From the NCBI GenBank assembly GCA_002279005.1, contig NCJS01000020.1, positions 1 to 33,178 on the forward strand: a stretch of 33,178 bases of DNA. The letters run 5' to 3'. The notes under the pieces are model-generated. The model was not told where the DNA came from and ran no database searches. It saw only the letters and a program-made list of their open reading frames with translations. The stretch is from Idiomarina sp. 34-48-12 (GTDB lineage Bacteria > Pseudomonadota > Gammaproteobacteria > Enterobacterales > Alteromonadaceae). Each line of letters opens with the position of its first letter. Positions within the stretch are counted from its first letter, which is position 1. The position numbers were made by a program, and so were the translations under genes. Positions 17,796-33,178 of this stretch are shown one piece after another.

Positions 17796-17936
17796 GTTAT
17801 TCGTTATTGGTTACTCGTTATTCGGAAAAGATAAAAGCGATAAAGCGAAATACACGAGCGTTAGAACAACTGTATTCAAAGAACCGAACTCTGCTAGTAT
17901 CAATCAACGATCAACGAATAACGATTAACGAACAAC
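17796..17936. repeat. Inverted array of 7-bp repeats (heptad locus A)
   Basis: On the left are four adjacent heptads GTTATTC, GTTATTG, GTTACTC and GTTATTC (17796-17823). On the right are five heptads AATCAAC, GATCAAC, GAATAAC, GATTAAC and GAACAAC (17902-17936), essentially the reverse complement of the left type. The 30-nt arms 17795-17824 and 17908-17937 pair at 24 of 30 positions, with an 83-nt AT-rich loop. The array fills most of the 220-bp gap between sbcB and the isoaspartyl peptidase gene, and the next partial unit (GAGG) is part of that gene's ribosome site. Confidence 0.8.
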
Positions 17937-17945
17937 GAGGTTTTT

Positions 17946-28821: not shown

Positions 28822-31476
28822 ATGAGTGATCTCGCCAGAGAAGTCGTTCCGGTCAATATTGAAGATGAGCTGAAAAGTTCATACCTCGATTACGCCATGA
28901 GTGTAATTGTAGGTCGGGCATTGCCGGATGTACGTGATGGTCTCAAGCCAGTTCACCGTCGCGTGTTATTCGCGATGAATGAACTACGCAATGATTTCAA
29001 CAAGCCATATAAAAAGTCAGCACGTATTGTTGGTGACGTGATTGGTAAATATCACCCGCATGGTGATAGCGCCGTGTACGATACCATTGTTCGTATGGCA
29101 CAGCCGTTCTCGCTGCGTTATATGCTGGTTGATGGTCAGGGTAACTTTGGTTCCGTTGACGGTGACTCCGCAGCAGCCATGCGTTATACCGAAATCAGAA
29201 TGGCAAAAATTGCCAGCGAATTACTCTCCGATCTCGACAAAGAAACCGTCGACTTTGTGCCGAACTACGATGGCACTGAACAAATTCCTGAAGTGTTACC
29301 AACCCGCGTACCGAACCTATTGGTTAACGGTTCATCAGGAATCGCCGTGGGTATGGCAACCAATATTCCGCCACACAACTTAACCGAAGTAGTGAATGGC
29401 TGTTTGGCGATGATTGATAATCCGGATATTCAAATTGATGAATTGATGGAATATATCCCAGGGCCAGACTTCCCAACTGCGGCCAGCATTTCTGGCCGTG
29501 CTGGCATTATTGAGGCTTATAAAACCGGTCGTGGTCGCATTCATTTGCGCGCGAAAGCGGAAATTGAAACCGATAGTAATGGTCGCGAAGCGATTATTGT
29601 CACGGAAATTCCGTATCAGGTGAACAAAGCGAAGTTGATTGAAAAAATCGCTGAGCTGGTCAAAGAAAAACGCCTTGAAGGTATCAGTGGTTTGCGTGAT
29701 GAGTCGGATAAAGACGGCATGCGCATTGTTATTGAGCTGAAACGTGGTGAAGTTTCAGAAGTTATTTTGAACCATTTATATGCCAACACCCAAATGCAAG
29801 TGGTGTTCGGTATTAACATGGTGGCATTGGATAAAAACCAACCGCGCTTATTTAACCTTCGCGATATGTTGGAATGCTTTATTCTACACCGTCGTGAAGT
29901 GGTGACACGTCGCTCGGTTTACGAGCTGCGTAAAGCGCGTGAGCGTGCCCACATCTTAGAAGGTTTGGCGATTGCACTGGCGAACATCGATGAAGTAATT
30001 GAACTGATTCGTCGTTCACAAACTGCAGCTGATGCGAAAGCTGGCTTAACTAGTCGTGCATGGCAGTTGGGTGATGTAGCGGCCATGCTCGAGCGGGCGG
30101 GTGTTGATGCGGCGCGCCCTGATCATTTGAGCGCTGAGTTTGGTATTCGCGATGGTCAGTACTATCTGACTGAAGAACAAGCCCAAGCCATTCTTGATTT
30201 GCGTTTGCACAAGTTAACTGGCCTTGAGCACGAGAAGATTCTTGAAGAATACAAGAACCTGCTACAACAAATTGAAGAATTGCTGCACATTCTGAATAGC
30301 GCTGAGCGTTTGATGGAAGTGATTCGTGAAGAGCTTGAAAAAGTGAAGGCGGAATATGGCGATGCGCGTCGTACCGAAATCACCGCGGCTGCGCACGATA
30401 TCAGCATGGAAGATTTGATTAACGAAGAAGACGTGGTTGTGACGTTGTCGCACCATGGTTACGTGAAGTATCAGCCGTTAACAGAATATGAAGCGCAACG
30501 TCGTGGTGGTAAGGGTAAATCTGCTACCAAGATGAAAGACGAAGACTTTATTGAACGCTTATGGGTTGCGAATACGCACGATACGATTTTGTGCTTCTCA
30601 ACCCGTGGTCGAATTTACTGGATGAAAGTTTACAACTTACCACTCGCCACACGTACCGCGCGTGGTCGACCTATTGTGAATTTGTTGCCACTGGAAGAGG
30701 GTGAGCGAATTACCGCTATCTTGCCAACGCGCGATTATCCAGAAGATAAATACATTGTGATGGCAACCCGTAAGGGCACGGTCAAGAAGACGCCAATGGA
30801 AGCTTACTCGCGTCCGCGTAGCGGCGGTATCATTGCTTTGAACCTGAATGATGGTGATGAGCTGATTGGTGTTGACGTGACTACTGCTGGCGATGAGATC
30901 ATGCTGTTCTCAGACGGCGGTAAAGTGGTGCGCTTTAGTGAAGATCAAGTGCGTTCAATGGGCCGTACCGCAACCGGCGTGCGAGGTATTCGCCTCGCTG
31001 AAGGGCAGAGCGTGGTATCACTAATTGTTCCGCGTACCATTGAAGAAGAAGTGCCGTGTATTCTGACAGTAACCGAAAACGGTTACGGTAAGCGTACACC
31101 AATCACTGATTATCCAGCGAAGAGCCGTGCAACCAAAGGTGTTGTTTCAATTAAAGTCAGTGAGCGTAACGGCCAAGTGGTTGGCGCCATGGAAGTTGTT
31201 GAAGCGAACCAAATCATGCTTATCAGTAACAAAGGAACGCTGGTACGTACCCGTGTTAGTGAAGTGTCGATTGTTGGCCGTAACACCCAGGGTGTGCGCT
31301 TGATTCGTACCGGTGCCGATGAACAAGTTGTTGGCATGCAGCGTATTGATGAAGTTGACGAAGATGATGAAACTGATGCGCTGTTGAACGAGCCGGTAGA
31401 AGGCGAGGACGCAAGCGAGCCTTTAGACGACGATGCGGATGATGACGCAGCGACTGATGATGTAAGTGAGGATTAA
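28822..31476 (+). CDS. gyrA: DNA gyrase subunit A
   Basis: An 884-residue type II topoisomerase subunit. The start [27 protein letters not shown] fits E. coli GyrA residue for residue; an ATG at 28768 in frame would add 18 residues not found in the family. The quinolone-determining region keeps Ser83 and Asp87 ([11 protein letters not shown]), the catalytic Tyr122 is in [10 protein letters not shown], and the GyrA box is QRRGGKG. The C-terminal beta-pinwheel is followed by a strongly acidic tail (about 845-884). A TACAAT at 28764-28769 would be a reasonable -10 and also argues for the later start. With GyrB it introduces negative supercoils. serC follows at 4 bp. Confidence 0.98.
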
Positions 31477-31480
31477 TTGC

Positions 31481-32563
31481 ATGAGTGCCCCGTTTAACTT
31501 TTCTGCGGGGCCGGCAATGCTGCCGGCAGAGATCATGAAACAAGCCCAGGAAGAGTTCCTAAATTGGAACAACCTGGGTATTTCAGTGATGGAAATTAGT
31601 CATCGTGATCCGATTTTTATTCGGATGGCCGAGCAAGCCGAGCAAGACTTGCGCGATTTGATGGCAATACCGAACAACTATCAAGTGCTGTTTATGCATG
31701 GCGGTGGTCGTGGTCAGTTTAGTGCGGTGCCGCAAAATATCGCGGGGCCAAACGCTACCGTCGATTATTTGAATTGTGGTATTTGGTCTGATTTTGCCAT
31801 TCGCGAAGCGCAAAAATACGTGCAACAGGTGAATGTTGTTGGTGCGTCAGTGCAAACCGAGCAGGGCAAAGCATTAGCGCCACGCGAAAGCTGGCAATTG
31901 TCAGACAATGCGGCGTATTTTCATTATTGTCCGAACGAAACGGTAGATGGCATTGCGTTGCATGAGATTCCTGATGTAAATGCGCCAATTGTCGCTGACA
32001 TGTCATCCAACATTCTCTCTGAACCCCTTGATGTTAGCCGTTTTGGTGTGATTTACGCCGGCGCACAAAAGAACATCGGTCCGTCTGGCTTCGCTATTGC
32101 CATTGTCCGTGACGATTTACTTGGTCATGCTCAGGGGAATACCTCGACCATTATGGATTACACCGTTCAGGCCAAAGAACGTTCAATGTATAACACCCCA
32201 AATACTTTCGCTTGGTATTTGTCTGCGTTGGTTTTCCAATGGCTCAAACGCCAAGGCGGTGTCGAGGCCATGGGACGAATGAACCATGCCAAAGCCAGTA
32301 AGCTGTATCAATATATTGACAGTTCTGACTTCTACAGTAATCCAGTTCACCCTAACTATCGTTCGATTATGAACGTACCATTCTTGCTAGCTGACGAGCG
32401 CCTCGACGGTGACTTCTTAAAGCAAGCAGAACAAGCTGGGCTGCTGGGGCTAAAAGGGCACCGTTTTGTCGGTGGTATGCGCGCGAGTATTTATAATGCG
32501 ATGCCGATGGCTGGGGTGGATGCGTTGGTTGAGTTTATGCGCGAATTTGAGCGCAAGGCCTAA
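31481..32563 (+). CDS. serC: Phosphoserine aminotransferase
   Basis: A 360-residue PLP enzyme (E. coli 362) that converts 3-phosphohydroxypyruvate to phosphoserine and also acts in PLP synthesis. [11 protein letters not shown] at the start, [31 protein letters not shown] and the PLP lysine in [12 protein letters not shown] are the family marks. The ATG at 31481 is preferred to a GTG at 31466: it matches the family start, and the GAGGA ribosome site (31468-31472) lies across the gyrA stop, so translation is coupled to gyrA. The gyrA, serC, hisC order is common in related genera. An inverted heptad array lies between it and hisC. Confidence 0.97.
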
Positions 32564-32575
32564 AAACAACAAGGG

Positions 32576-32675
32576 CGATATTAGCTATTAGATATTCGAT
32601 ATTAGAACTTCGATGTTCGATATCTACGATGTTCTTTAGCTAATATCCAATATCTAATAACTAATATCGAATTTG
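32576..32675. repeat. Inverted array of 7-bp repeats (heptad locus B)
   Basis: Left heptads GATATTA, GCTATTA, GATATTC, GATATTA, GAACTTC and GATGTTC run from 32577 to 32618; right heptads TAATATC, CAATATC, TAATAAC and TAATATC (32641-32668) are the reverse complements of the first four in reverse order. The 30-nt arms 32576-32605 and 32640-32669 pair at 28 of 30 positions, with a 34-nt loop that has further GAAC/GTTC pairing. The element fills the serC-hisC gap. No T-tract follows. Confidence 0.85.
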
Positions 32676-32684
32676 AACTTAATC

Positions 32685-33178
32685 ATGACTGAGTTTAATG
32701 CCAAAGAATTAGCGAATCCTGGGGTTCGTAACTTAAGCCCTTATCAAGCGGGCAAGCCCATTGAAGAAGTGGAGCGTGAGCTTGGAATTAAGAATATTGT
32801 GAAGTTGGCTTCGAATGAGAACCCACTTGGGTTGAGTGCGAAGGTAAAAACGGCGTTGCAAGAAACCCTAAATGGTTTGGCGCGTTATCCGGATGCCAAT
32901 GGCTTTTATTTGAAAAGCAAACTTGCAACCAAGTTTGGTGTTCATACCAATCAAATTACTTTGGGTAATGGCTCGAATGATGTGCTTGAGCTATTGGCTC
33001 GCACATTTGTTGATTCCAGTCACGAAGTGATTTTTGCGCAGCACGCGTTTGTGGTGTATCCACTGGTAACACAGGCGATTGGTGCGACTGGCGTAGCGGT
33101 TCCAGCAAAAGATTATGGGCATGATTTGCCGGCGATGTTGAAGGCGATTACGCCGAAAACGCGGATGATTTTTATTGC
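32685..33178 (+). CDS. hisC: Histidinol-phosphate aminotransferase (partial, runs off the right edge)
   Basis: The first 164 residues of a PLP aminotransferase of the HisC family: NLSPYQAGKPIEEVERELG, LASNENPLG, RYPDANGFYLK and the substrate/cofactor loop GNGSNDVLELLARTF are typical. HisC makes histidinol phosphate and, in organisms where hisC is outside the his operon as here, some members also transaminate aromatic amino acid precursors. The ATG at 32685 has no clear ribosome site; the sequence before it is the end of the heptad array. The PLP lysine lies beyond the window, so the full enzyme cannot be checked. Confidence 0.93.
   Translation, partial: MTEFNAKELANPGVRNLSPYQAGKPIEEVERELGIKNIVKLASNENPLGLSAKVKTALQETLNGLARYPDANGFYLKSKLATKFGVHTNQITLGNGSNDVLELLARTFVDSSHEVIFAQHAFVVYPLVTQAIGATGVAVPAKDYGHDLPAMLKAITPKTRMIFI

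Follow-up and report, generated by a model that had tools for sequence, protein, structure and literature searches.

Inverted heptad arrays of several families at shared intergenic sites in Pseudidiomarina: site-by-site replacement in place

The gap between serC and a hisC-like gene in Idiomarina sp. 34-48-12 is filled by an element with two inverted arms of 7-bp units: what kind of element is this, and how do such elements come to occupy their sites? We analysed the stretch of DNA in which it lies (NCBI GenBank assembly GCA_002279005.1, contig NCJS01000020.1, positions 1 to 33,178; these 33,178 nt are the window throughout) together with related genomes. For dispersed palindromes of bacteria the usual explanation is the insertion of copies at new places by a transposase, and REP, REPIN and BIME sequences are GTAG palindromes tied to RAYT transposases. 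The elements described here differ between species mainly in that one family is replaced by another at the same site, a pattern that is absent from the initial annotation of this DNA and not readily explained by ordinary jumping DNA.

By sequence identity the source organism is placed in Pseudidiomarina, near P. marina: its SerC is 97% identical to that of P. marina, and across the gyrA-serC region DNA identity is about 92%. With 282 contigs and 2.1 Mb, the source assembly reaches 88% completeness.

The serC-hisC element and its dispersed relatives

The arms of the serC-hisC element are 30 nt each, 93% complementary and 34 nt apart, and both have a period of 7 by TRF (Table 1). Position 32576 is at once the first base of the left arm and the final C of the outer motif, and the heptads run from 32577. 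At an arm length of at least 21 nt and a complementarity of at least 85%, the window contains two inverted repeats only, this element and a first array at 17801-17938, and 20 Markov (dinucleotide) shuffles of the window yielded none. These results bear out an inverted heptad array with an arm matching at 28 of 30 positions, as the initial annotation had it, as well as the presence in 33 kb of two such elements that agree in unit length, in G as first base and in the inner TATT; the further heptads that it placed in the loop are present but weak. The single strand from 32560 to 32690 folds as RNA at -36.1 kcal/mol (z -6.7), with none of 200 shuffles as good. Rfam gave no match at gathering scores across the whole window, and a scan of 32500-32760 for promoters and for terminators with a G+C-rich stem and a T run found neither.

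Table 1. Coordinates of the two inverted heptad arrays of the window and of the genes flanking the serC-hisC element
Feature	Position	Strand	Basis and remarks
First array, family B arms (GTTATTC)	17801-17824 / 17915-17938	.	21/24 paired; brackets a 90-nt stretch
serC, upstream gene	31466..32563	+	Pfam Aminotran_5 (PF00266); stop codon 32561-32563
Outer motif CAAnnnC (CAAGGGC), left end	32570..32576	+	6 nt 3' of serC stop codon
Left arm, family A (GATATTA GCTATTA GATATTC GATATTA + G)	32576..32605	+	Inverted-repeat search, TRF
Spacer (loop), 34 nt	32606..32639	.	Inverted-repeat search
Right arm, family A, inverted, 28/30 complementary to left arm	32640..32669	-	Inverted-repeat search, TRF
Outer motif GnnnTTG (GAATTTG), right end	32669..32675	-	9 nt 5' of next start codon
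hisC-like aminotransferase, cut by window end	32685..33178	+	Pfam Aminotran_1_2 (PF00155); name hisC from the initial annotation

The first array lies between divergent exonuclease and asparaginase genes, and both P. marina and P. tainanensis have retained the roughly 90 nt between its arms; judged by eye, this bracketed stretch may be the asparaginase promoter region. The same site has C-type units in P. woesei and P. donghaiensis, units of both B and C type in the L064 MAG, and no units in SN11 and P. gelatinasegens.

The family A element at serC-hisC is one of dozens in its genome. A BLAST search with the gap found 117 matching stretches there, overlapping and on both strands, and matches in 14 of the 25 other genomes of the genus. 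The window and the 33 source-genome loci that were fetched because they match the gap (34 sequences) contain 112 A-type arms. These form 46 clusters, and 42 clusters are convergent pairs of a left arm and an inverted right arm; one shuffle of these 34 sequences left no A-type arm. A search of 800 kb of P. marina that was blind to sequence (arm of at least 20, at least 85% complementarity) returned 43 inverted repeats, 33 of them heptad-periodic, the remaining ten being five GTAG REPs, three A-, B- or C-like repeats below the period threshold and two others; 400 kb of Markov-shuffled P. marina sequence returned none. A dispersed family of inverted heptad arrays, as had been surmised from the two in the window, is thus confirmed, and scans set against shuffled controls find further copies in number.

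The elements measure about 90-200 bp and share one architecture: the outer motif CAAnnnC, a few G-x-T-A-T-T-n heptads per arm, a spacer and the inverted arm. Family A has the consensus CAAnnnC, GATATTA, GCTATTR, GATATTR, GATATTA, and across 111 source-genome arms its outer motif has C in 101, A in 86, A in 106 and the final C in 98. The unit of family B is GTTATTC; family C, defined by eye, mixes B heptads with GTTCG-type units. In 151 of 162 clusters all left-type modules precede all right-type modules, nine have one type only and two are tandem elements. The elements are too short to code, multicopy and bounded by terminal inverted repeats, as are MITEs and foldback elements.

Across the order, a pattern scan found some array of four GNTATTN units in 38 of 394 genomes, only two of the genomes being in this genus. 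The source genome has 170 matches to this pattern and every other sampled genome at most 22; the reversed pattern, as a control, gave up to 21 (in one genome). Of 80 viral loci among the matches listed, seven (L365, L374, L387, L396, L398, L409, L423) have heptad-periodic inverted repeats, and the 19 loci scanned from other genomes had no heptad palindromes. Three further observations concern the distribution of elements. On P. marina contig C3 they are very dense at 50-150 kb (L168-L173), where they occupy 27 of 75 paired gaps, but occupy only 2 of 68 at 300-400 kb. A dif-like site lies on another P. marina contig (C1:581945). The serC-hisC gap of P. woesei (L065 from 4093; L043) has several head-to-tail copies of a family A unit of about 92 bp.

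Fixed sites with changing contents

Intergenic gaps were compared between species with genes called by a simple codon model, gaps paired by their flanking anchors and contents classified by motif words, a classifier that fired in none of 283 shuffled gaps. There are 321 gaps in 400 kb of P. marina, of which 284 could be paired with P. tainanensis; the 37 unpaired gaps have no element. Both species are occupied at 41 of the paired gaps, where about 6 would be expected by chance, and neither at 240. The gaps occupied in a single species, one in P. marina (gap 108) and two in P. tainanensis (gaps 21 and 22), all contain REPs, and at gap 21 the REP of P. tainanensis faces a decayed REP in P. marina. 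Hence none of the 284 paired gaps has a heptad element in one species that is absent from the other, and yet the two species have no family in common at 22 of the 41 shared sites. The comparison of P. marina with P. woesei is similar: of 111 gaps, 22 are occupied in both (12 of them without a common family), 2 and 1 in one species only and 86 in neither. Against the more distant SN11, 97 gaps divide into 6 occupied in both, 17 in P. marina only and 74 in neither, and gap 42, one of the 17 scored as empty in SN11, shows heptad remnants. Judged by eye, the empty gaps of the outgroups are too diverged for target-site duplications to be read.

The same is seen from the source genome, where 42 sites were chosen for being of family A. 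Those that map to P. marina stretches (26) have A at 6, B, C or a REP at 20 and are never empty; those that map to P. tainanensis (23) have A at 17, C at 5 and a REP at 1, again with none empty. Some scores of 'empty' elsewhere in this mapping are arrays or remnants by eye (the L064 MAG at L021_1033 and L025_798), and losses outside P. marina and P. tainanensis are therefore over-counted. The serC-hisC gap follows suit: family A is found in the source genome, the L064 MAG and P. woesei, family B in P. marina, and family C in P. tainanensis, P. donghaiensis and P. gelatinasegens; some relatives, P. indica and P. mangrovi for example, have no array there. It is accordingly not conserved base for base among relatives, and alignments at orthologous sites confirm the suggestion that units are gained and lost across the genus, with heptad numbers that differ between species at orthologous A sites (L025, L027). 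Taken together, these comparisons show families replacing one another in place, site by site.

GTAG REPs share some of these sites with the heptad elements. In the sampled stretches of P. marina (C3, L166-L185), P. tainanensis (C1, L262-L281) and P. woesei (C4, L282-L291), REPs between codirectional genes overlap the stop codon of the upstream gene: 26 of 38 start 4 nt within that gene, whose stop is then the TAG of GTAG.

The direction of change can be read at 11 sites with A in both the source genome and P. tainanensis and a different family in P. marina. We take P. marina as the sister of the source genome since it is the nearest by identity, and the retention of A in the other two then places the change most simply on the P. 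marina branch. The flanks of these sites were pooled (21 flanks, starting 25 nt outside the heptads and thus leaving out the nearest 25 nt). Identity between the source genome and P. marina falls with distance from 0.958 through 0.940 and 0.910 to 0.887, exceeds that of both other pairs at all distances and shows no dip towards the element; with the source genome closest to P. marina throughout, no foreign flank is seen. Taken singly, 6 of the 21 flanks of the source genome are closer to P. tainanensis, as in the right flank of L012_1061 (0.94 to P. tainanensis vs 0.86 to P. marina). Between P. marina and P. tainanensis, swapped, unswapped and unoccupied gaps have flanks of similar identity. 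Within the nearest 20 nt alignment gaps are commoner at swapped sites (0.15-0.19 vs 0.07-0.08), and in some pairs the common sequence reaches the first heptad, CAAnnnC included (for example at the second sites of L012 and L021). The change is thus confined to the element and its immediate ends.

Mixed elements also occur. Twenty of the 162 clusters combine families: five pair an A side with a B side, and others are nested or mixed with REPs. A B-left/A-right element at gap 215 is common to P. marina and P. tainanensis; at gap 36 of P. woesei an outermost A heptad, a first unit that a point mutation could also give, is followed by B units around a REP. The loops at sites with A in both the source genome and P. 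tainanensis have a mean likeness of 0.67 vs 0.43 for loops of other sites, and some loops of the source genome are alike between sites (up to 0.93). Several of the loops at these A/A sites are not alike, which means that A may replace A as well. The 23 P. marina B loops, a sample from a third of that genome, include no near-identical pair of donor and copy: the best partner reaches at most 0.78 and the median is 0.67. By eye, the loop contains a terminator-like hairpin at L031, where the hairpins of the two species differ in sequence, and at P. marina gap 215 (C3:270934-271194).

Constraint on the heptads and explanations of the exchange

At orthologous sites with A in both species (gapped positions set aside), the 17 pairs between the source genome and P. 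tainanensis have an identity of 0.95-0.98 at heptad positions 1-6, 0.82 at position 7, 0.83 in the loop and 0.92 in the near flanks. The 10 pairs with P. woesei give 0.77 at position 7 and 0.92-0.98 at the other heptad positions, and the 6 pairs with P. marina show no such dip (0.94 vs 0.93-1.00). Within the A arms of the source genome, position 7 is near-fixed in the first and fourth heptads; most of its variation lies in heptads 2 and 3, which have two common haplotypes.

Among 62 A elements that have four heptads in each arm, no covariation between arms was found (0.925 within vs 0.923 between elements, a value reached in 3,248 of 10,000 permutations), a test that speaks for the free positions, the pattern by which arms were collected having fixed most of the core. 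That pattern passed only 3 B elements, too few for judging this family; conservation of the core is read instead from the unforced scan and the orthologous pairs. Arm mismatches in the 62 elements are G.T and A.C in equal number (33 each). With no covariation and with A.C equal to G.T, pairing itself is not evidently selected, and a core that is kept at orthologous sites while base 7 drifts, in arms that do not covary, predicts a sequence-reading protein. Sequence comparison therefore suggests that the heptad core is recognised as sequence more than it is maintained as base pairs.

Our preferred reading, which we consider evenly balanced between true and false, is that palindromes of several families occupy fixed intergenic sites in the Pseudidiomarina clade, that exchange among them is confined to the element and that the heptads are putative protein sites. 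Since replacement is seen at occupied sites and no heptad element is gained in empty gaps, the resident element seems to be the target of the newcomer. The resident palindrome might start the exchange, if its hairpin or cruciform stalls or is cleaved during replication; the resulting gap could then be refilled by copying another element, through template switching or short-homology gene conversion between heptad arms, with entry and exit via the arms (common GnTATTnG) or the common ends (CAAnnnCG). The heptads would in that case be contiguous 7-bp binding sites of the putative sequence-reading protein. Two observations limit this scheme: replacements between A and REPs share no heptads, so arm homology cannot account for all swaps, and the P. 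marina B loops sampled include no fresh pair of donor and copy. Also counting against the preferred reading are the near-fixation of position 7 in heptads 1 and 4, the missing dip at that position in the P. marina pairs and the six single flanks nearer to P. tainanensis. A stronger form, which we offer tentatively as a possibility, holds that the sites are fixed docking sites at which cassettes of rival families displace residents in place by exchange at the heptad arms, rather than by entering unoccupied DNA, with a putative dedicated protein that reads the heptads.

The main rival is selection for stem-loops at these gaps, which we regard as rather unlikely. Any palindrome that lands there, heptad or REP, would be kept as an intercistronic hairpin that may protect mRNA 3' ends or decouple translation; families would turn over by transposition and deletion, and insertions elsewhere would be purged. 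Conservation of sites could indeed also reflect selection for a hairpin, and the use of the same sites by heptads and REPs as well as the strong RNA fold at serC-hisC agree with it. So does position: heptad elements in codirectional gaps of P. marina C3 lie closer to the preceding stop codon in 15 of the 20 cases that are not ties (sign p 0.04), with 9 of 11 in P. woesei (p 0.07) and 8 of 13 in P. tainanensis (p 0.58). Occupied gaps, however, show no orientation preference (33 codirectional, 5 divergent and 5 convergent vs 177, 34 and 29 among the unoccupied; p 0.90), which also leaves unsupported the role in setting serC and hisC expression or mRNA stability proposed in the initial annotation. 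The arms do not covary and tolerate A.C as often as G.T; P. marina and P. tainanensis both lack an element at 77 gaps of at least 100 bp; and in the first array a long conserved stretch separates the B arms, which do not form a compact hairpin.

Allelic exchange between species is improbable in our judgement. Here long-standing A, B, C and REP alleles at each site would spread by homologous recombination of transformed DNA together with their gene flanks. The six flanks of the source genome that are closer to P. tainanensis would fit, as would the lack of near-identical B copies in the P. marina sample, by which B was not freshly copied there. Yet the pooled flanks, outside the excluded 25 nt, are closest between the source genome and P. 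marina and do not dip towards the element, and those of P. marina and P. tainanensis are equally alike whether a site is swapped, unswapped or unoccupied.

Ordinary MITE or REPIN transposition by a Y1 (RAYT-like) transposase is disfavoured for the heptad elements, and we would give it little credence. Y1_Tnp is found in 19 of 26 genomes of the genus, including such heptad-bearing ones as P. tainanensis, P. donghaiensis, P. woesei and the L064 MAG, and GTAG REPs do exist in the genus; but heptad-bearing P. marina, P. gelatinasegens and the source genome (at its 88% completeness) have no Y1_Tnp, and heptad elements show no gain in empty gaps, whereas REPs vary by presence and absence. Simple heptamer microsatellites that arise by strand slippage, of the kind found in cyanobacteria or Beggiatoaceae, and are inverted by chance would account for the variable heptad number at orthologous A sites but are scarcely credible, and as the main process are refuted by the change of family in both arms and loop at a site that stays, besides the left-before-right order of nearly all clusters, the outer motif common to the sites and the likeness of some loops between sites.

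Relation to known systems

A literature search, covering chiefly journals outside subscription, found no recognised description of these heptad elements or of replacement in place. REPs and REPINs resemble them in being short, dispersed, intergenic, palindromic and non-coding. They differ in several respects: the heptad arms are 7-bp periodic, AT-rich and without the GTAG head, A arms starting with CAAnnnC-G.TATT.; a RAYT-like gene is missing from three heptad-bearing genomes and present in four close ones; and it is REPs, not the heptad elements of paired gaps, that vary by presence and absence between species.

The TAACTGA heptamer repeats of Beggiatoaceae, cyanobacteria and Bacteroidetes likewise consist of intergenic 7-bp units with many sets per genome. 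In the available part of their description these are direct repeats, mostly just 5' of a start codon, with one inverted set in the main genome (MacGregor 2015, PMC4679880), whereas the clusters of the source genome are convergent pairs in 42 of 46 cases and their families replace each other by site. In shape the elements recall the Foldback and Galileo elements of Drosophila, which according to the available portions of two accounts have long, internally repetitive terminal inverted repeats, with multiple transposase binding sites reported for Galileo (PMC3573991, PMC3688188). The Pseudidiomarina elements, with similarly repetitive inverted repeats, are bacterial and only about 0.1-0.2 kb long, and neither a transposase nor a target duplication was found for them.

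A further comparison is with parS of plasmid pSM19035, a plasmid centromere with six sites. As far as the available text describes it, parS consists of contiguous WATCACW heptads, direct or inverted and with degenerate end bases, each bound by one ribbon-helix-helix omega dimer, and at least 4 contiguous units are needed for full activation (PMC9499535). Its sequence is unrelated, and no omega-like protein is tied to the Pseudidiomarina elements. Both nevertheless have contiguous heptads in which the core is kept and the end base is free, a likeness that holds for the P. tainanensis and P. woesei pairs but not the 6 P. marina pairs, and in Pseudidiomarina arms mainly for heptads 2 and 3. The heptad code of a kept core, a partly free seventh base and arms that do not covary would predict a protein that might be retrieved with DNA as bait. 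If the stronger form with docking sites is true, these elements would represent a mode of mobility in which replacement comes without any gain, unlike transposition, homing or allelic recombination. A resident that seems to be the target of the newcomer raises the question of how non-coding elements compete for sites, in a cultivable genus where replacement is measurable.
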